A DNA stretch of 46,588 bases, from contig JAFVBR010000047.1 of assembly GCA_017479885.1 (NCBI GenBank), positions 1 through 46,588 of the forward strand, in the 5' to 3' direction. Position numbers and translations under genes: made by a program. Positions within the stretch are counted from its first letter, which is position 1, and each line of letters begins with the position of its first letter. Origin of the DNA: Paludibacteraceae bacterium (GTDB lineage: Bacteria > Bacteroidota > Bacteroidia > Bacteroidales > Paludibacteraceae). Below are positions 24,865 through 40,332 of this stretch, piece after piece. The notes beneath the pieces are model-generated. The model saw only the letters and a list, made by a program, of their open reading frames with translations. It ran no database searches and was not told the DNA's origin.

Positions 24865-25004
24865 CAAACAACTCTCAATCCGTCAAACAACCGTCAAACA
24901 ACTCTCAAACAACCATCAAACAACTGTCAAACAACCGTCAAACAACCATCAAACAACTGTCAAACAACTGTCAAACGACTGTCAAACGACTGTCAAACAA
25001 CTAT
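24865..25004 (+). repeat. 11-bp tandem array 1 (CAAACAACYRT)
   Basis: Eleven units in exact 11-nt phase start at 24884 and end at 25004, preceded by one full and one shortened unit. Units vary at positions 6, 9 and 10 (CCGT, CCAT, CTGT, CTCT). The array fills the aspS to holin gap and stops 15 nt before the next start codon. The same unit forms array 2 at 30464. Confidence 0.9.
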
Positions 25005-25019
25005 TAAACAATTATAATT

Positions 25020-30435: not shown

Positions 30436-30453
30436 ATCAAACTAAACTACTGT

Positions 30454-30756
30454 CAAACAATATCAAACAACCATCAAACAACCGTCAAACAACCATCAAA
30501 CAACCATCAAACAACCATCAAACAACCGTCAAACAACCGTCAAACAACCGTCAAACAACCGTCAAACAACCGTCAAACAACCGTCAAACAACCGTCAAAC
30601 AACCATCAAACAACCATCAAACAACCGTCAAACAACCGTCAAACAACCGTCAAACAACCGTCAAACAACCGTCAAACAACCGTCAAACAACCGTCAAACA
30701 ACCGTCAAACAACCGTCAAACAACCGTCAAACAACCGTCAAACAACCGTCAAACTT
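30454..30756. repeat. 11-bp tandem array 2 (CAAACAACCRT), 26 copies in perfect phase
   Basis: From 30464 to 30749 there are 26 units of exactly 11 nt without a single length change, preceded by one 10-nt unit (30454) and ended by a partial CAAAC. Only one position varies: A or G at the tenth base (A in units 1, 3-5, 13 and 14, G elsewhere). It lies between the YigZ-like gene and the acyltransferase gene, both transcribed leftward, so the transcript reads ACGGTTGTTTG. Because 11 is not a multiple of three, all three frames cycle within it; on the plus strand this makes long spurious ORFs. Confidence 0.95.
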
Positions 30757-31347: not shown

Positions 31348-31715
31348 TATTTGTGAACTGCCATTATTGATACACCATTCAATAAATCATGTGCTGTTCC
31401 CTTTTAATCTGAGTGCTATGCCATATTAATTTATCTCCTATACTCAATTATATGAATATATACAGTACTCCACATGAATGTACACTCCCAAAGCCTATGC
31501 CTTTCCTGCATGAATTTAATCATATTTATTCCATATAATTAGTATGAAATTAGTATGTGATTAGTATGTGATTAGTATGTGATTAATTATTCGGTACCGT
31601 AATTCTTTGTTACACTCACGCTGATTTCAATACTTATCTCATGATTTGATAACGCCTGCCTTGTCAACTTAATTCCGCTTTCTTCAATAAAAGATTATAT
31701 TTTTTTCGTGATTTT
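31348..31715. other. A/T-rich gap between divergent operons
   Basis: No gene is seen. The only structure noted is the 11-bp repeat at 31539-31582. The rest is low in G+C and otherwise featureless. Confidence 0.6.
31539..31582 (+). repeat. 11-bp tandem repeat of a different unit (TTAGTATGTGA x4)
   Basis: The first unit is TTAGTATGAAA (31539-31549), followed by three exact TTAGTATGTGA units to 31582 and then TTAATTA. The length is 11 nt again, but the unit is unrelated to arrays 1 and 2. Confidence 0.9.
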
Positions 31716-31849: not shown

Positions 31850-33553
31850 ATGAATAAAACTGACAATTCGTTAATACCCAATATTCTTCTGCGTTTAGCA
31901 GGCGGGCAGCAATACAGGGAACTGAAGCGTGCCTGCCGTAATCCCCGCAAGGCGCAGGAACTTACCCTGAGAAGCATTCTCGCTTATGCCAAAGATACTG
32001 TCTATGGCAAAGAGCATCATTTCGATGAAATACTTCAGGCAAAGACGGCGGAAGAACTTTTTATCAGTTATCAGAACAACGTAAAAGCCACTGATTACGA
32101 GCAGTTGCGTGAATACGTAGAGCGCCACAAACAAGGAGAAGAGAATGTCCTATTCCCCGGCAGACCTCGCATGTATGCCACCACATCGGGTACAACCAAA
32201 CAACCAAAATGGATTCCCCTCACTCAGGTTTATCTGAAGAATGTCTATCAGAAGATGACCTACCTGTGGCTCTATAACTACATACGTCACAAGAGAAAGA
32301 CTTTTGCAGGTAAGGTGGTTTTTGTTGTCAGCACTGCCGAAGAAGGCTATGCCCCTGACGGTACGGTTTATGGTGCTGTATCAGGCGTGCTTCAGAAAGA
32401 TGCGCCCGAACTGATAAGAGAGCATTACGCATCAGTACCTGAGATATTCGAGATAAAAGATTATGCTGCAAGATATTATGCACTAATGCGGATATCGGTT
32501 GAACAGTATGTCACCTTGGTCATCATGCCCAATCCCTCTTCAGTGATTGAGATGCAGAACACTCTCACAGAACATTTCGAAGCGATTTGTGATGATATAG
32601 AGAAAGGAACCATTTCTGATGAATTCGACATTCCTGACAATATACGCAATTCGCTTCTGTCATATATAACCCCCAACCCCGAGCGTGCACAGGAACTGCG
32701 TGCCTTGAAAGCGGAATACGGAGAAGTGCTGCCCAAGCATTATTGGCCCGACGTGCAGATGCTGAGCACATGGAAATGCGGCAACACACAGATATATGCA
32801 GACAAAATAAAGGATTGGTTTCCTGCTGACTGCTTCTATCAGGAGTTGGGATATTTCGCCACCGAATGTAGGTTCGGACTTGTGATAGATGACACATTGA
32901 ACTCAGTGCTCTTCCCTCATTATCATTATTACGAGTTTGTGGAAGAGAGCGAGATAGGCAACCCCGATGCCTCTTTTCTGCAGTTGGACGAATTGGTGGA
33001 AGGCAAGCGCTATTGCCCTTATGTGACCACCTTCTCAGGCCTTTACAGATACAACATGAGCGACCTTGTGGAAGTGGGACCTTCCTTCAAGAATACCCCC
33101 ACCGTACACATGGTTCAGAAAGTGAACGGGATAGTCAGCATGACGGGTGAGAAATTGTATGAAGGTCAGTATATTGAGGCTGTGCGTACTGCCGAGAAAC
33201 AACTCAAAATGAAGACGCGTTTCTTCGTTGGCTTCGCTGACATCTCATCCATGGCTTATCAATTTTACTATGAGTTTGTCAATCAAAAGACTACACAAGC
33301 GGCCGCCGAACGTTTCTCCAAGCGGGTAGATGAGATACTTCAACGTATAAACATCGAATATAAGGCAAAACGCGAGAGTTTCCGTCTGAAAGAACCTCGG
33401 ACCCACAGACTCGGAAAGGACTCGTTCTACCGATTCAAGAAGAAGAGTATTGCCGATGGTACAGGCAGAGACGGGCAGTTCAAAGTAAACCTTCTCATGC
33501 AAGACGACAAACGTAAAGCCAAGTTTGACCAACTTGAGAAGATATATGATTGA
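31850..33553 (+). CDS. GH3-family acyl-adenylating/amido-synthetase-like enzyme, copy 1
   Basis: The 567-residue protein belongs to the GH3 family, relatives of plant enzymes that adenylate a carboxylic acid and join it to an amine. Family marks are the opening NILLRLAGGQQYRELKRACRNP, the phosphate-binding YATTSGTTKQPKWIPLT, EGYAPDGTVYGAVSG, the YRYNMSDLVEVG strand and the MTGEKLYEGQ hinge. The substrates of bacterial members are largely unknown. In this operon I infer N-acylation of a sphingoid base or amino lipid, unproven. The start at 31850 follows the promoter and gives the same N-terminus as copy 2. The second copy begins 26 nt later. Confidence 0.87.
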   Translation: MNKTDNSLIPNILLRLAGGQQYRELKRACRNPRKAQELTLRSILAYAKDTVYGKEHHFDEILQAKTAEELFISYQNNVKATDYEQLREYVERHKQGEENVLFPGRPRMYATTSGTTKQPKWIPLTQVYLKNVYQKMTYLWLYNYIRHKRKTFAGKVVFVVSTAEEGYAPDGTVYGAVSGVLQKDAPELIREHYASVPEIFEIKDYAARYYALMRISVEQYVTLVIMPNPSSVIEMQNTLTEHFEAICDDIEKGTISDEFDIPDNIRNSLLSYITPNPERAQELRALKAEYGEVLPKHYWPDVQMLSTWKCGNTQIYADKIKDWFPADCFYQELGYFATECRFGLVIDDTLNSVLFPHYHYYEFVEESEIGNPDASFLQLDELVEGKRYCPYVTTFSGLYRYNMSDLVEVGPSFKNTPTVHMVQKVNGIVSMTGEKLYEGQYIEAVRTAEKQLKMKTRFFVGFADISSMAYQFYYEFVNQKTTQAAAERFSKRVDEILQRINIEYKAKRESFRLKEPRTHRLGKDSFYRFKKKSIADGTGRDGQFKVNLLMQDDKRKAKFDQLEKIYD

Positions 33554-33579
33554 TATAGACTAATATATATATTATCACT

Positions 33580-35277
33580 ATGGAGAAACCTGTAAATGCA
33601 TTTGTGCCGAATTTTCTGTTGGGAATAGCAGGTGGCATACAATATCTAAAACTTAAGTCTGTCAGCAAGAACCCGCGTAAGGCGAGTGAAAAGACACTGC
33701 GTGGCATATTGCAGTATGCCAAAGATACTGTATATGGCAAGGAGCACCACTTTGAAGAGATTTTGAAAGCAAAAGATGACAAGGAGTTGTACAGGCTTTA
33801 TCAGAAGTATGTTCCTGCTCAGGAATATGAGAGCCTGCGCCCGTATGTAGAGCGTCATAAACAAGGAGAAACAGATATTCTGTTCCCTGGCAAACCTGTT
33901 ATGTATGCTACAACGAGTGGTACAACCAAAGAACCAAAATGGGTGCCTATCACAAAAGTATATTTGAATTCTGTCTATGGCAAGATGACAAAGGTGTGGT
34001 TGTTCAACTTCATCAAGAACCGTCCGAAGGTTTTCACGGGAAAGATCGTCAGTATAGTTGGTAAGGTAATCGAGGGCTATGCACCCGATGGCACTGTCTT
34101 CGGCTCAGTGAGTGGTGTCACACAGCGCGATTGCCCTAAGTTCGTCAAGAAACTCTACGCTTCTCCTTCAGACATATTCTCTATTACAGATTACAATGCC
34201 CGCTACTATGCTATCATGCGTATGGGTATTGAAAGAAATATCACTCTGATAGTTACAGCAAATCCTTCCACCATCGTTGAGATGCAGAACAATGTAAATG
34301 AGTATTATGACCAATACGTCAAAGATATAGAGAAAGGTACAATCAATGCCAATCTCAACATCTCTCCAGAGATTCGTGCCGCGCTAATGCCGTACTTCAA
34401 ACCCAATCCTGAACGTGCTGCCGAATTGCGGGCTCTAAAAGAAAAGTATGGGCGAGTACTGCCCAAGCACTATTGGCCCAACATGCAAATACTTAACACT
34501 TGGAAGTGTGGTAATACAAAGGTTTATCTCGACAAGTTCAAAGACTCATTCCCCGAACAGATGTTGCATCAGGAATTTGGTTATTTCTCATCAGAATGCC
34601 GTTTCGGACTTGTACTTGACGATACCAACAATACGGTCCTTTTCCCGCATTTCCATTATTATGAGTTTGTGGAAGAGCATGACATAGAGAGCGAGAATCC
34701 TCATTACTTGCAACTGCATGAGTTGCAGGAGGGTAAGCGCTATTGTCCGTTCGTTACAACGTATGCAGGTTTGTATCGTTACAATATGAACGACCTGGTG
34801 GAAGTTGGTCCTAAATTTCAAAACACTCCCACAGTTCACATGATTCAGAAAGTTAATGGCATAGTTACTATGACAGGTGAGAAACTGCATGAGCGTCAAT
34901 TTATTGAAGCTGTACGTACTGCTGAGAAAGAATTGCAGATGCCGGTCAAGTTCTTTGTCGGATTTGCCGATTTGGACATCTCCGCCTACCATTTCTACTA
35001 TGAGTTTGAGAACCTGGATACCACTCAAAAGGAAGCAGAGTTATTCACTGGGAAAGTGGACGAAGTGTTGCAGCAAGTAAATATTGAATACAAAGCAAAG
35101 CGTGAATCATTCCGTGTGAAAGACCCTGTTACGCACCGTTTGCAGAAAGAATCGTTTGAGACTTTTAAGGCACAATGCATTGCTGAAGGTGCCCGTGACG
35201 GACAGTTCAAGATGAATCTGCTGATGCAAGACGAGAAACGTCATGCTAAGTTCAAGAAGTTGGTTATTGCCGACTGA
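33580..35277 (+). CDS. GH3-family enzyme, copy 2
   Basis: This 565-residue tandem paralogue of the preceding gene is alignable end to end, with the same motifs (YATTSGTTKEPKWVPIT, EGYAPDGTVFGSVSG, YRYNMNDLVEVG, MTGEKLHERQ). Most positions are identical and both N- and C-termini match, so the pair arose by tandem duplication and has since diverged, perhaps in acyl or amine preference. The catalytic motifs are intact in both. It is followed after 9 nt by the HAD gene. Confidence 0.87.
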   Translation: MEKPVNAFVPNFLLGIAGGIQYLKLKSVSKNPRKASEKTLRGILQYAKDTVYGKEHHFEEILKAKDDKELYRLYQKYVPAQEYESLRPYVERHKQGETDILFPGKPVMYATTSGTTKEPKWVPITKVYLNSVYGKMTKVWLFNFIKNRPKVFTGKIVSIVGKVIEGYAPDGTVFGSVSGVTQRDCPKFVKKLYASPSDIFSITDYNARYYAIMRMGIERNITLIVTANPSTIVEMQNNVNEYYDQYVKDIEKGTINANLNISPEIRAALMPYFKPNPERAAELRALKEKYGRVLPKHYWPNMQILNTWKCGNTKVYLDKFKDSFPEQMLHQEFGYFSSECRFGLVLDDTNNTVLFPHFHYYEFVEEHDIESENPHYLQLHELQEGKRYCPFVTTYAGLYRYNMNDLVEVGPKFQNTPTVHMIQKVNGIVTMTGEKLHERQFIEAVRTAEKELQMPVKFFVGFADLDISAYHFYYEFENLDTTQKEAELFTGKVDEVLQQVNIEYKAKRESFRVKDPVTHRLQKESFETFKAQCIAEGARDGQFKMNLLMQDEKRHAKFKKLVIAD

Positions 35278-35286
35278 CAACCGCTG

Positions 35287-35907
35287 ATGAAACAGTTGAG
35301 AATTGAAGATATTGATTTGGAAGGAATACGCGCAGTTGTATTCGATCTCGACGGTACGCTTTACGACAAGCGTTTTCTCCCGTTACGTCTTGTCGCAGGT
35401 GACTTGCACCATGCATTGTGGATCGCCTCGGAACGTCATGCCCGTCGTTTGCTGAAAGGACAGGACTTTGGTGATGCCGACACTTTCTATAAAACACTGT
35501 TCACTCACATATCTTCTCATCAGAATGTACCATATCTCAAGGTTAAAGAGTGGTATTTCGGACAATATCTACCTCTTACCATTGACATTTTGTATCAACA
35601 CTATGAAGCAGGTGCTTTTGTTATCCCTCTGCTCAGAGAATTGGACAAACGCAACATCAAAACTGCTGTGTTCTCAGACTATCGTTGCGTAGAAGATAAA
35701 ATAAGAGCAATCGGACTTGAATCCAAAATGTTTGACTATTGTCTGGCTGCACCTGAATTAGGAGGCCTCAAACCGAACAAAACTCTGTTTATGCGATTGC
35801 TGAAACTGATGCGGGTCAAACCTGAGCAGACTTTGATGATTGGTGACAGGGAAGACACTGACGGGCAAGGGGCCAAGAACGCAGGAATGAAATTCCTCAA
35901 GGTGTGA
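35287..35907 (+). CDS. HAD-family phosphatase
   Basis: The 206-residue protein has all four HAD motifs: DLDGTL (about 20-25, nucleophile Asp first), Ser in TAVFSDY, Lys in LGGLKPNKTLF, and GDREDTD at about 191-197. A helical cap sits between motifs I and II. The cap and size suggest a small phospho-metabolite phosphatase; in this operon a phospholipid or sphingoid-phosphate intermediate is possible. There is no signal peptide, so it is cytoplasmic. Confidence 0.85.
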   Translation: MKQLRIEDIDLEGIRAVVFDLDGTLYDKRFLPLRLVAGDLHHALWIASERHARRLLKGQDFGDADTFYKTLFTHISSHQNVPYLKVKEWYFGQYLPLTIDILYQHYEAGAFVIPLLRELDKRNIKTAVFSDYRCVEDKIRAIGLESKMFDYCLAAPELGGLKPNKTLFMRLLKLMRVKPEQTLMIGDREDTDGQGAKNAGMKFLKV

Positions 35908-35934
35908 CGGGAAACAATAAACGAAAAGATAATT

Positions 35935-36789
35935 ATGAATCTGCGATACGATAATCTGAAAGTGAGTAAGGGTGTATATGTACCTGAGATAGGAAAATCA
36001 TACCCTGAACATGGACCTGACAAGAGTCAGTTGCATCCTGTTTATATCGACAATCGTGTTTTCGATGAGACATATCCCTATCTTGACGATTCGTTCCGTT
36101 TCAAATTGAACAATTGGGTAGGGTACTATCTGTTTTTGTATCCTATAGTATTCACTGCAAACAGAATAAAGAACGGACTGAAAATACAAGGTAGAGAGAA
36201 CCTGAGAAAATGGAGGAAAGAACTCCGAAGAAACGGTGCAATCACCATAAGCAACCATTGCAACCGCCTTGATGCACCCGCAGTACTCAACGCTGTGTTT
36301 GCCAACCGACATACACGCATACCTATGTATGCGCCCAATTTCAACACCAAAGACCATTGGTACATGTGGGCCGTCGGCGGAATACCTGTTCCTGAATCGG
36401 GGATGCAGGCAATGAAATGTTTCAATGCCGCCTTTGATGAATTCAACCGCAGACATTGGTGGTTTCACATCTTTCCTGAAGCTGCGCGTTGGGACGGATA
36501 CAAACCCTTGCGTCCCTTCCAAAAAGGTGCATTCACCATGGCATACAAGTATGACAAACCATTGCTGCCGTGCGTTATAACTTTCCGTCCGAGAACCGGC
36601 ATATACAAACTGTTCGGGTCGGCTGACGAACCGTTGCTCACAGTCACTATAGGTGAACCCGTCTTCCCCGACAAGACTCAGCCGAGAAAACAGGAAGTGG
36701 ACAGACTGAGGGAGATATGCCACGTGAGAATGCAAAAGATGGCAGGTATAACGGAAAACACATGGCCTATAGTGCCTGAAAACGAATAA
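35935..36789 (+). CDS. PlsC-like lysophospholipid acyltransferase
   Basis: The 284-residue protein has the HX4D block as NHCNRLD (about 102-108), the downstream Arg block at TRIPMYAPN, and FPEAAR in place of FPEGTR. The late VITFRP segment is also present. A single hydrophobic stretch near residue 63-75 (YYLFLYPIVFTA) suggests membrane association. It should transfer an acyl chain to a hydroxyl of a glycerolipid or sphingolipid-like acceptor; the FPEA variant may alter specificity. It lies within the operon (27 nt before and after). Confidence 0.83.
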   Translation: MNLRYDNLKVSKGVYVPEIGKSYPEHGPDKSQLHPVYIDNRVFDETYPYLDDSFRFKLNNWVGYYLFLYPIVFTANRIKNGLKIQGRENLRKWRKELRRNGAITISNHCNRLDAPAVLNAVFANRHTRIPMYAPNFNTKDHWYMWAVGGIPVPESGMQAMKCFNAAFDEFNRRHWWFHIFPEAARWDGYKPLRPFQKGAFTMAYKYDKPLLPCVITFRPRTGIYKLFGSADEPLLTVTIGEPVFPDKTQPRKQEVDRLREICHVRMQKMAGITENTWPIVPENE

Positions 36790-36816
36790 AACGAAACAAA
36801 AGATTAGAATAAATAT

Positions 36817-38001
36817 ATGGATCTATTTGACAAATGTAACTATGAGCTGTTGAATCGCTCAAGAGAATTGGGTGTTTATCCCTATTTCCATGAACTACAG
36901 TCACGTCAAGCCCCTATCGTCACCATGGAAGGACGTCGGGTAATTATGCTTGGCAGCAACAACTATCTTGGATTGACAGAAGATGACGATGTGATAGAAG
37001 CCGGTATCAATGCCTTATATAAATATGGTACAGGTTGTTCAGGTTCGCGTTTTCTCAATGGTACACTCGACCTTCATAAGGAACTCGAAAGAGAACTCGC
37101 CGAGTTTATGGGCAAGGAAGACTGTATGACTTGTGCAACCGGTTTTCAGTCGAATTTGGCAATCATCTCGGCTATTGCAGGCAGAAACGACTACATTCTC
37201 AACGACAAAGAGAACCATGCCTCTATTTACGATGCATGCAGACTAAGTTTCGCTACCACTCTGCGCTACAACCATAGCGATATGGAAGATCTTGAGAAAC
37301 AGTTGAAAAGAATTCCTGACACGGCAGGCAAACTGATAGTCACCGACGGTGTGTTTTCTATGCGCGGAGATATATGCAAGTTGCCTGAAATCTGTGCATT
37401 GGCAGAGAAATACGGAGCAAGAGTGATGGTTGACGATGCACACGGATTTGGCGTTCTTGGCAATGGAGGACGCGGTACTGCCGACTACTTCGGCTTAACC
37501 GACAAAGTTGACATCATTATGCTCACCTTCTCCAAGTCGCTTGCTTCGATAGGCGGTTGTATGCTTACTTCTCATCATGTGGCAGATTGGCTCAGACATG
37601 TATCCCGACCATTTATCTTCTCAGCCAGCATGACTCCGGCATCCACAGCAACAGCACTTACAGCACTACGCAAACTTAAGGCACATCCTGAAATGTGTGA
37701 TAATCTGAAAAACATATCTGCCTATTTCCGCAAAGGCCTGCTCGACAACGGAGTGAGGATAATTGACGCACCGACACCTATAGTACCCATCTTCACCTAC
37801 AACTCTCTTGACACTTTCTACTATGGCAAACGTTTGTTTGAGGAGGGTGTGTACGTAAATCCCGTCATTGCTCCTGCTTGTGTGGAAGGCGAGTGCCTGC
37901 TTCGTTCTACTCTGATGGCAACACATACCGAACCTGTTGTAGATGAGGCTGTTCAGATTATTAGCAACGTGCTCAAACAGGGTATTCCTGAAACTTGGTA
38001 A
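36817..38001 (+). CDS. spt: Serine palmitoyltransferase-like alpha-oxoamine synthase
   Basis: This 394-residue PLP enzyme is of the alpha-oxoamine synthase family. It has YGTGCSGSRFLNGTLDLH (69-86), the stacking His in KENHASIYD (H134), VDDAHGFGVLG (205-215) and the PLP lysine K240 in TFSKSLASIGG. The beginning GVYPYFHELQSRQAPIVTMEGR resembles known Bacteroides serine palmitoyltransferase better than 8-amino-7-oxononanoate or 2-amino-3-ketobutyrate enzymes, and no biotin genes are nearby. It would condense serine with an acyl-CoA or acyl-ACP to give a 3-keto sphingoid base. The reductase gene follows after 3 nt. Confidence 0.85.
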   Translation: MDLFDKCNYELLNRSRELGVYPYFHELQSRQAPIVTMEGRRVIMLGSNNYLGLTEDDDVIEAGINALYKYGTGCSGSRFLNGTLDLHKELERELAEFMGKEDCMTCATGFQSNLAIISAIAGRNDYILNDKENHASIYDACRLSFATTLRYNHSDMEDLEKQLKRIPDTAGKLIVTDGVFSMRGDICKLPEICALAEKYGARVMVDDAHGFGVLGNGGRGTADYFGLTDKVDIIMLTFSKSLASIGGCMLTSHHVADWLRHVSRPFIFSASMTPASTATALTALRKLKAHPEMCDNLKNISAYFRKGLLDNGVRIIDAPTPIVPIFTYNSLDTFYYGKRLFEEGVYVNPVIAPACVEGECLLRSTLMATHTEPVVDEAVQIISNVLKQGIPETW

Positions 38002-38004
38002 GAC

Positions 38005-38790
38005 ATGAAACAGGTTGTGATTATTACCGGCGGCTCTTCAGGTATAGGCAAAGCTGCTGCAGAGTTGTTTGCAAAGAAAGGTTATTCCGTTTATGAGTTC
38101 TCAAGAAGCGGCAAATCTGCAGACAGTATATGTCATGTGGATTGTGATGTGACCAATGAAGAGCAGGTGAAAAAGGCTGTGGAACTTGTTGCAGACAAAG
38201 AGGGCAGGGTTGATGTGCTTGTAAGCAATGCAGGATACGGAATTTCAGGAGCTGTAGAGTTCACAAGAACAGAAGATGCCAAACGTCAGTTTGACGTGAA
38301 TTTCTTCGGAGCACTTAATGTGGTGAAGGCAGTACTGCCGATAATGCGCAGCCGCAAACAGGGCAGAATTGTATTTACAAGCAGTGTGGCAGCAGTCCTG
38401 AGCATCCCGTATCAGTCCTTCTATTCTGCATCCAAATCCGCCATCAACGCCCTTGCTTTGGCATTGAGAAACGAGGTCGCAGAGTTCGGAATAACCGTTA
38501 CTGCCCTCATGCCGGGCGATGTAAGCACCGGATTCACTGCGGCGAGAGATAAAAGTGTGGCAGGCGAACAAGTTTATACACACATGCGCAAAGCAGTTGC
38601 AGCAATGGAGAAAGACGAGCAAAGCGGGATGAGTTCCGAGTATTTGGCACTACAACTCTACAAAGCGGCTACAAAGCGTAATCCGAAGCCTCTATATACT
38701 GCGGGCGTGCAGTACAGGATATTTGTAGTTTTGGAAAAACTGTTGCCTAAACGACTGAGCAATTGGATTGTTGGTCTTTTATACAGATAA
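38005..38790 (+). CDS. Short-chain dehydrogenase/reductase, candidate 3-ketosphinganine reductase
   Basis: This is a 261-residue classical SDR with NAD(P)-binding TGGSSGIG (8-15), NAG (75-77), a catalytic Ser near 127, and Y140 and K144 in YSASK. The hydrophobic C-terminal end (RIFVVLEKLLPKRLSNWIVGLLYR region) could attach it to the membrane, as in sphinganine reductases. Its position immediately after the SPT-like gene makes reduction of the 3-keto group to dihydrosphingosine the natural guess; sequence alone cannot prove the substrate. It is the last gene of the operon. Confidence 0.82.
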   Translation: MKQVVIITGGSSGIGKAAAELFAKKGYSVYEFSRSGKSADSICHVDCDVTNEEQVKKAVELVADKEGRVDVLVSNAGYGISGAVEFTRTEDAKRQFDVNFFGALNVVKAVLPIMRSRKQGRIVFTSSVAAVLSIPYQSFYSASKSAINALALALRNEVAEFGITVTALMPGDVSTGFTAARDKSVAGEQVYTHMRKAVAAMEKDEQSGMSSEYLALQLYKAATKRNPKPLYTAGVQYRIFVVLEKLLPKRLSNWIVGLLYR

Positions 38791-38927: not shown

Positions 38928-38998
38928 GCGGCATTAGCACATCGGTAGTGCATGAGCTTCCCAAGCTTAGGAGGTGGGTTCGACTCCCATATGCCGCT
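38928..38998 (+). tRNA. tRNA-Gly (anticodon CCC)
   Basis: A cloverleaf of 71 nt without encoded CCA. The acceptor is GCGGCAT (38928-38934) with ATGCCGC (38991-38997) and discriminator T. The D stem is GCAC/GTGC, the anticodon stem TGAGC/GCTTA with loop TTCCCAA, and the T stem GTGGG/CCCAT with the TTCGACT loop. The anticodon is CCC, reading GGG. Confidence 0.95.
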
Positions 38999-39015
38999 CT
39001 TATTACAATTATACT

Positions 39016-40332
39016 ATGGCAAAAGCATTTCAGAAAATTTATACGCAGATTACTGCTATCACGAAAGCCACTTGCTCACTCAAGGCACAGGGAGTCGGCA
39101 ACGATGAGTTGGCAACAGTAAACGGCAAGTTGGCTCAGGTTGTAAAAATCATGGGTGACGATGTCACACTGCAGGTGTTTGAGGGTACAGAGGGTATTCC
39201 TACCGATGCCGAAGTGGTATTCTTGGGCAAAGCGCCGTCTCTTCGCGTAAGCGACCAATTGGCAGGACGTTTCTTCAATGCCTATGGCGACCCAATTGAC
39301 GGAGGACCCGAGGTGGAAGGCGAAGAAGTGGAAATCGGCGGACCTTCGGTTAATCCGGTCCGCAGAAAGCAACCGTCTGAACTGATTGCAACAGGTATTG
39401 CAGGTATCGACCTTAACAACACTTTGGTCTCCGGACAGAAGATTCCGTTCTTTGCTGACCCAGACCAACCATATAATCAGGTTATGGCGAACGTTGCTCT
39501 GCGTGCTGAGGCCGACAAGATTATTCTCGGCGGTATGGGTCTGACTAACGATGACTACCTGTATTTCAAAAATGTGTTCTCCAATGCCGGAGTGCTTGAC
39601 CGCATTGTGTCCTTTGTCAACACAACTGAGAATCCTCCTGTAGAGCGTCTGCTTATTCCTGATATGGCTCTTACTGCAGCAGAGTATTTTGCTGTGCAGA
39701 AAAACGAGAAGGTACTCGTCTTGCTGACCGACATGACGCTTTATGCCGATGCACTTGCCATTGTGAGCAACCGTATGGATCAGATTCCTTCCAAGGACTC
39801 TATGCCGGGTTCTCTTTACAGTGACCTTGCAAAAATATATGAGAAGGCTGTTCAGTTCCCCACAGGCGGTTCGATAACTATCATTGCTGTCACTACGCTC
39901 TCAGGCGGAGATATCACCCATGCTATTCCCGACAATACAGGTTACATTACCGAGGGTCAGTTGTATCTGCGTCGCGACTCTGATATCGGTAAGGTTATTG
40001 TTGACCCGTTCCGCTCACTGAGCCGTCTGAAACAACTTGTGGCAGGCAAGAAAACACGCGAAGACCATCCGCAAGTGATGAATGCCGCTGTTCGTCTGTA
40101 CGCGGACGCCGCAAATGCCAAAACCAAACTTGAGAACGGTTTCGACCTTACTGACTACGACAACCGCTGCCTGCAGTTTGCAAAAGACTATTCCGACAAG
40201 ATTTTGGCGATAGATGTCAATATCAACACCACAGAAATGCTTGATGTGGCATGGCAATTGTTTGCCAAGCACTTCCGTCCTGAGGAAGTTAATATCAAGC
40301 AGGCATTGGTTGACAAATATTGGGGCAAATAA
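39016..40332 (+). CDS. ntpB: V-type ATP synthase subunit B
   Basis: This is the non-catalytic nucleotide-site subunit of the V1 head, 438 residues. It shows the beta-barrel start (FQKIYTQITAITKATCSLK), the core GRFFNAYGDPIDGG, ELIATGIAGIDLNNTLVSGQKIP (where catalytic subunits have a P-loop, absent here), and the LTDMTLYADAL and SLSRLK segments. The start 17 nt after the tRNA gives the correct family N-terminus. Its usual neighbours, A upstream and D downstream, are not here; D-I-K lies 27 kb away and A and E are outside the window. The stop codon lies inside a terminator. Confidence 0.95.
   Translation: MAKAFQKIYTQITAITKATCSLKAQGVGNDELATVNGKLAQVVKIMGDDVTLQVFEGTEGIPTDAEVVFLGKAPSLRVSDQLAGRFFNAYGDPIDGGPEVEGEEVEIGGPSVNPVRRKQPSELIATGIAGIDLNNTLVSGQKIPFFADPDQPYNQVMANVALRAEADKIILGGMGLTNDDYLYFKNVFSNAGVLDRIVSFVNTTENPPVERLLIPDMALTAAEYFAVQKNEKVLVLLTDMTLYADALAIVSNRMDQIPSKDSMPGSLYSDLAKIYEKAVQFPTGGSITIIAVTTLSGGDITHAIPDNTGYITEGQLYLRRDSDIGKVIVDPFRSLSRLKQLVAGKKTREDHPQVMNAAVRLYADAANAKTKLENGFDLTDYDNRCLQFAKDYSDKILAIDVNINTTEMLDVAWQLFAKHFRPEEVNIKQALVDKYWGK

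Follow-up and report, generated by a model that had tools for sequence, protein, structure and literature searches.

Organization of the locus

The window, that is, the whole 46,588-nucleotide stretch analysed here, comes from a Paludibacteraceae genome (G000; 2.8 Mb, 93.8% complete) whose closest relatives with a name are MAGs from the rumen, assigned to Paludibacteraceae and Bacteroidales. It carries six + strand genes between positions 31850 and 38790, and their open frames are separated by gaps of 26, 9, 27, 27 and 3 nt. Pfam searches identified two GH3 proteins, both complete, followed by a HAD hydrolase, an acyltransferase with a PlsC domain, an enzyme of the aminotransferase class I/II family and an SDR:

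31850-33553, + strand: GH3a, acyl-acid:amine ligase family (Pfam GH3, GH3_M and GH3_C; alignment; separate tree branch)
33580-35277, + strand: GH3b, acyl-acid:amine ligase family (Pfam; AlphaFold model; Foldseek PDB matches; intact adenylation motifs)
35287-35907, + strand: HAD-family hydrolase (PF00702/PF13419)
35935-36789, + strand: PlsC-like O-acyltransferase with an N-terminal extension (PF01553, 52.7 bits; HX4D motif NHCNRLD)
36817-38001, + strand: divergent serine palmitoyltransferase, SPT (NCBIfam SerpalmtaseCFB best; PDB 3a2b; branch and motifs)
38005-38790, + strand: SDR, probable 3-ketosphinganine reductase (NCBIfam KdsR best; neighbor of SPT in relatives)

Alignment of homologues and the frame start of GH3a in a related locus (L143) indicate that GH3a begins at the ATG in 31850 and not with the longer GTG frame from 31721. 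The same six-gene order was found in two further genomes (L036/G200 and L062/G224; tblastn for the SPT loci), that is, in three genomes with the window, and the arrangement is therefore not an assembly accident. The order, strand and families recovered from open frames, Pfam and NCBIfam agree with the six-gene operon described in the initial annotation.

Downstream of the SDR gene lies a tRNA-Gly gene (38928-38999) and, directly after the operon and this tRNA, a V-type ATP synthase subunit B-like gene (38974-40332; PRK02118, above cut-off). Upstream, positions 31536-31585 hold 4.5 copies of an 11-bp repeat, TAATTAGTATG, that could influence expression of the operon. This repeat differs from the 11-bp repeats, related to each other, that form two arrays at 30444-30754 (AAACAACCGTC, about 28 copies) and 24865-25011 (GTCAAACAACT, about 12 copies).

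A predicted sphinganine-making pair

The best NCBIfam model for the SPT-like protein is the CFB-type serine palmitoyltransferase (NF047600), and its best PDB match is the Sphingobacterium-type SPT 3a2b (412 bits). The protein keeps the active-site motifs GCSGSRF, NHASI, DDAH, FSKS, SASMTP and LLRSTLMATHT, read against the residues that we take to matter in the Sphingobacterium enzyme. The label "SPT-like" given initially is thus right as to the nearest family, but the score of 514 bits is below the cut-off of 640 bits, as are those of the 12 other SPT copies of the window type (496-518 bits). A sulfonolipid (capnine) synthase is unlikely, since the match to the structure of cysteate-C-fatty acyltransferase reaches 213 bits versus 412 for SPT.

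A tree was built with 18 canonical SPTs, 12 window-type SPTs, five SPTs from the order sample and that of E. coli BL21, and was rooted on L004, a weaker family member from the window genome. In this tree, printed without support values, the window SPT forms its own branch within the SPTs, adjoining the canonical Bacteroidales SPT. The window genome encodes one further SPT-family member at E ≤ 1e-10 (328 bits).

Similarly, the SDR has the 3-ketodihydrosphingosine reductase KdsR (NF049977) as its best NCBIfam model, with 234 bits for a cut-off of 400. Two SDRs of other Bacteroidales likewise have KdsR as their best model and stay under this cut-off, one adjacent to SPT (L173, 337 bits) and one from an SPT stretch (L164, 389 bits). 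The Y-x-x-x-K (YSASK) and TGGSSGIG motifs can be read directly in the sequence; a search against PDB gave no match at E ≤ 1e-25. Of the 12 further genomes with a window-type SPT, tblastn showed the SDR gene adjoining SPT in 11, the exception being G203; among the remaining 24 fetched SPT stretches, 8 have an SDR of about 40% identity next to SPT. SPT and SDR, 3 nt apart, are therefore likely to form the predicted sphinganine-making pair: families, PDB match, tree and adjacency all support the two first sphingolipid steps proposed initially.

The tetrad HAD-PlsC-SPT-SDR is intact in 6 of the 13 genomes with a window-type SPT, window included (tblastn). Among the others, PlsC-SPT was found in one and SPT-SDR alone in six, one of which is cut by a contig end; the G199 contig begins at SPT. 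Hence, HAD and PlsC do accompany SPT in part of the window's genus.

The GH3 proteins and their recurrent partners

GH3a and GH3b both exceed the curated cut-offs of the three Pfam models that cover the N-terminal, middle and C-terminal domains. They are paralogues sharing 63% identity, and their separate branches in a midpoint-rooted tree of 29 sequences rule out a recent tandem duplication. Both belong to a clade of 565-aa proteins: in alignments, GH3b shares 63-74% identity with GH3a and with four members from the order sample, but only about 20-25% with the 510-aa GH3 that is common in Bacteroidales. The three nucleotide-binding motifs (commonest forms TTSG[TS]T, Y-x-x-x-E and GLYRY..D; compare PMC12493201) are present in both proteins, and their key columns are invariant among 29 aligned sequences. 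The AlphaFold model, made for GH3b alone (mean pLDDT 81.6), has the GH3 fold: in a Foldseek search against PDB it matched over its full length and plant GH3s occupied the first 30 matches. Neither protein reaches the cut-off of the OlsH equivalog NF052613 (620 bits), with scores of 91 and 95.7 bits.

Neighborhoods were compared over 79 loci related to the window GH3s, in which homologues of the window HAD and PlsC were counted; they were also counted near SPT loci. A same-strand HAD homologue occurs in 53 of the 79 loci, at most 150 nt from GH3 in 48 of them and at most 30 nt away or overlapping in 36. A PlsC homologue is found no more than 2.5 kb from GH3 in 25 loci, on the same strand in 14 and on the opposite strand in 11. 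With stricter clustering, the counts are 48 for HAD and 25 for PlsC. HAD and PlsC are therefore recurrent partners of the 565-aa GH3 clade. No homologue of either was found in the nine loci of the common 510-aa GH3 that were examined. Against PDB, the window HAD retrieves generic HAD phosphatases alone (best E 1.5e-8).

One locus (L102:582-4551) displays a tightly joined GH3-HAD-PlsC-SDR set in a genome where the SPT model retrieves no SPT-type match (best score 342 bits, in the range of KBL-like members). This indicates that the SDR can stand with PlsC in the absence of SPT, and reflects either a clean loss of SPT or an SDR with a different substrate. It is also what favors an assignment of the genes to glycerolipid remodelling, in which the SDR would reduce 1-acyl-dihydroxyacetone phosphate, PlsC would produce phosphatidate, HAD would dephosphorylate it and GH3 would supply an acyl conjugate. 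However, KdsR is the best model for the SDR of L102 (245 bits) as it is for that of the window, and SPT and SDR are adjacent in most window-type genomes and in one third of the other SPT stretches; we regard this assignment as highly improbable.

GH3 and SPT genes are distributed independently

The initial annotation had proposed that GH3 enzymes N-acylate a sphingoid base. In this scheme, SPT and SDR would supply sphinganine, one or both GH3s would N-acylate it, and the lipid would be completed by PlsC and HAD. Several data fit it: the six same-strand genes with short gaps and an order kept in three genomes, the HAD-PlsC pair, which accompanies GH3 in genera other than the window's and SPT in the window's own, and a chemistry of acyl-AMP formation and transfer to an amine that suits the reaction (PMC12493201).

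However, GH3 and SPT show no association. Among 150 genomes of the family (98 of them with a completeness of 90% or more and a contamination of 5% or less), SPT is present in 25 of the 37 that carry the 565-aa GH3 clade versus 74 of the 113 that do not (p=1.0). The two genes lie on one contig in a single one of these 25 genomes, that of the window. Likewise, among 198 genomes of the order, 172 of which encode a GH3 of any type, such a gene is found in 62 of the 69 SPT-positive genomes versus 110 of the 129 SPT-negative ones (p=0.51). The 565-aa clade occurs in six genomes of this sample, and the window's alone has SPT. The samples overlap (G243 and G346 are apparently one genome, and there are others), and profile A1 contains rows from four order-sample genomes.

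Individual genomes give the same picture. Four near-complete genomes (G163, G074, G109 and G001) carry the GH3 clade with no SPT at E ≤ 1e-110. In genus g164, eight genomes (64-99% complete) encode the GH3 clade and none has an SPT or a match to the bCerS family described below; no g164 genome is found among the 99 SPT-positive ones of the family sample. Within the window's own genus, three genomes have SPT without the GH3 clade (G315, G332 and G391) and three others the converse (G346, G356 and G363). Since almost all relatives are MAGs, these absences are soft.

At the level of loci, SPT is found in only two of the 79 GH3 loci (L036 and L062). Fifty of the genomes that carry these loci were typed: their SPT is of the window type in 12 and canonical in 18, and 20 have neither. 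Reciprocally, GH3 stands beside 2 of 30 SPT genes (12 window-type and 18 canonical), in stretches of 4-16 kb, several of which end at contig ends. GH3 genes are therefore mostly unlinked to SPT in relatives, the outcome that the initial annotation had named as refuting its proposal, and the sphingoid-base role assigned to them is not supported.

Furthermore, genome G205 retains the flanking genes of both sides with HAD-PlsC-SPT-SDR between them, but lacks GH3 at this location; as in G202 and G246, its GH3 genes are located elsewhere. Together with the independent distributions, this would also be expected if the two sets of genes were mere neighbors, joined by rearrangement and sharing neither product nor control. 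Such a fortuitous juxtaposition is rather unlikely in our opinion, since gaps of 3-27 nt and a single order in three genomes argue for joint transcription at least, and terminator-like sites across the region are no more numerous than in shuffled sequences (5 versus a mean of 6.3).

A candidate for ceramide N-acylation

Another family tracks SPT. In 11 of the 24 SPT stretches from other Bacteroidales, we found a 371-aa GNAT-like protein, in some cases with an ACP and an AMP-ligase. Its profile retrieves YghO from E. coli BL21 (E 2e-63), whose gene sits in a cluster with spt, an ACP, an epimerase and an acyl-AMP ligase. YghO and CC_1154 of Caulobacter are assigned the acyl-CoA N-acyltransferase step in dihydroceramide synthesis (PMC9386255), and ceramide-synthase references are cited for Bacteroides in PMC10865984. 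A member of this bCerS family lies in the same fetched stretch as SPT in 11 of 36 SPT loci, all of them among the 24 other stretches and none among the 12 of the window type. For instance, L158:2819-5778 contains an SPT-linked AMP-ligase, an ACP and a YghO-family acyltransferase, a set that resembles the E. coli BL21 cluster and is a candidate for a compact ceramide pathway.

At E ≤ 1e-20, the family is found in 169 of the 198 order genomes. Copies scoring at least 430 bits occur in 52 of the 69 SPT-positive Bacteroidales genomes versus 14 of the 129 SPT-negative ones (p=4e-20). The corresponding figures are 53 versus 26 at 400 bits (p 7e-15) and 53 versus 40 at 370 bits (p 9e-10). These p-values are optimistic, since the score bands were picked after the scores had been viewed and the profile (A2, built from 10 of the 11 cluster members) derives from SPT-linked copies.

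The window genome holds one copy on contig 34 (444 bits, 28% identical to YghO), and so do all but one of the 12 further genomes with a window-type SPT (seven at 430 bits or more, four just under, 418-430). In G224, a 1.9 Mb MAG that has the full operon, no match was detected at E ≤ 1e-10, which favors a GH3 role in N-acylation. Conversely, genomes of the window's genus in which SPT was not detected (G346, G356, G363 and G387) carry the gene, which may therefore serve another role there.

With a bCerS-family homologue elsewhere in the window genome and GH3 genes distributed independently of SPT, we consider N-acylation of sphinganine by the GH3s of the operon to be improbable. The more general idea that GH3 is the missing ceramide synthase of Bacteroidota was dropped as the leading reading, since GH3 does not co-occur with SPT and the YghO/bCerS family does. 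A role of GH3 in ceramide synthesis is possible in the window's genus, the evidence against it outweighing that in its favor.

Proposed function of the operon

We give about an even chance to an operon made of two modules: a GH3-HAD-PlsC module of the aminolipid type which, in one genus, stands beside an SPT-SDR module for sphinganine. This reading is preferred because GH3-HAD, with or without PlsC, recurs without SPT, because the bCerS family tracks SPT, because the GH3s have the expected fold and motifs, and because OlsH provides a precedent. In the first module, the GH3s would convert a fatty acid and ATP into an acyl-AMP and transfer the acyl group to an amine, most likely a head group of the amino acid or amino-alcohol type. 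PlsC would add a second acyl chain through an ester bond, in an OlsA-like manner, and HAD would either dephosphorylate a precursor or intermediate or drive the reaction by hydrolysing the released phosphates. In the second module, SPT would condense serine with an acyl thioester to 3-ketosphinganine, which SDR would reduce to sphinganine. Ceramide N-acylation in this organism would most likely be performed by the YghO/bCerS-family acyltransferase of contig 34. The two modules might be under joint control; this and every substrate are inferred from the observed families, motifs, fold, linkage and distribution.

Some data do not fit easily with two modules: the six-gene order kept in three genomes and the HAD-PlsC-SPT-SDR sets of the genus, the 11 of 25 loci in which PlsC is encoded opposite to GH3, the absence of a bCerS-family match in G224 and the presence of this family in same-genus genomes that lack a detected SPT. 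Moreover, the window genome contains a match to Acetyltransf_5 (47 bits), as do 17 of the 24 genomes searched. We take this Pfam family to be a marker of OlsB/GlsB. The match is perhaps OlsB/GlsB-like, so that an amino-acid N-acylator may already be there, which weakens the idea that GH3 substitutes for GlsB/OlsB. Finally, OlsH used non-hydroxy acids well and hydroxypalmitate very weakly, with which an acyloxyacyl product agrees poorly.

A more specific scenario would give the GH3s a sphingoid substrate after all. The window's genus would have recruited the GH3 pair with HAD and PlsC, an ATP-dependent GH3 would N-acylate sphinganine from free fatty acids and PlsC would add a third chain. The product would be an acyloxyacyl ceramide, reached without the known bacterial ceramide synthase. 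We judge this scenario distinctly improbable. More generally, a sphingoid substrate for GH3 has a low probability, and the most likely reading of the GH3-HAD-PlsC half is a module for amide lipids, present mostly apart from SPT.

The recurrence of GH3-HAD-PlsC supplies testable partners for finding the substrate of GH3, and the SPT-linked operon is one clean place to ask whether GH3s act on sphingoid bases. In addition, the link between YghO/bCerS and SPT across Bacteroidales yields a concrete candidate for the ceramide synthase.

Comparison with known systems

Literature searches combining GH3 with sphingolipid, aminolipid or Bacteroidota returned no title assigning a sphingolipid role to GH3, subscription papers being mostly outside their coverage. 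In the literature searched, a single study tests the function of a bacterial GH3. It describes OlsH from Singulisphaera acidiphila (2025), which forms N-acyl ornithine from free fatty acids in an ATP-dependent manner, using non-hydroxy acids well and hydroxypalmitate very weakly (PMC12493201). Its authors report that almost 90% of the matches are in Bacteroidota, and suggest that other bacterial GH3s, those of Bacteroidota among them, act on different amino acids (PMC12493201). Thus, GH3 is already known as a bacterial fatty acid:amine ligase, and the role that the initial annotation held to be new has been published for amide lipids; what stands is the sphingoid acceptor, as the main text of PMC12493201 contains neither "ceramide" nor "serine palmitoyl". 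OlsH (GH3-like lyso-ornithine lipid synthetase, NF052613) resembles the window GH3s in family, motifs, fatty acid:amine ligase chemistry and bacterial lipid context. However, its partner is the alpha/beta hydrolase OlsI, whereas those of the window GH3s are HAD and PlsC.

The plant GH3 acyl acid amido synthetases are structurally close to GH3b (JAR1, Foldseek E 4e-31; GH3.15, TM-scores 0.76-0.79) but share only 18-21% identity with it. The acids used by the plant enzymes are hormones and aromatic acids rather than membrane fatty acids.

The SPT and 3-ketosphinganine reductase of Bacteroidota, for instance BtSPT BT_0870 and BT_0972, resemble the window pair by the SPT branch, the motifs and the KdsR-type SDR. 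The window proteins differ from them by a divergent branch and by scores under both NCBIfam cut-offs. In B. thetaiotaomicron, BT_0972 is not clustered with SPT (PMC9278070).

The bCerS/Aca proteins (CC_1154 and YghO of E. coli BL21) are GNAT-like and, in this respect, differ from the window GH3s; this family is the expected owner of the ceramide N-acylation first given to GH3. Finally, the OlsBA/GlsBA pathway, whose OlsA carries the PlsC domain PF01553 (PMC11631085), proceeds by N-acylation and then O-acylation, as the proposed GH3-PlsC module would. Its N-acylation is performed by an acyltransferase that uses acyl-ACP, whereas that of the window would depend on an ATP-using GH3.
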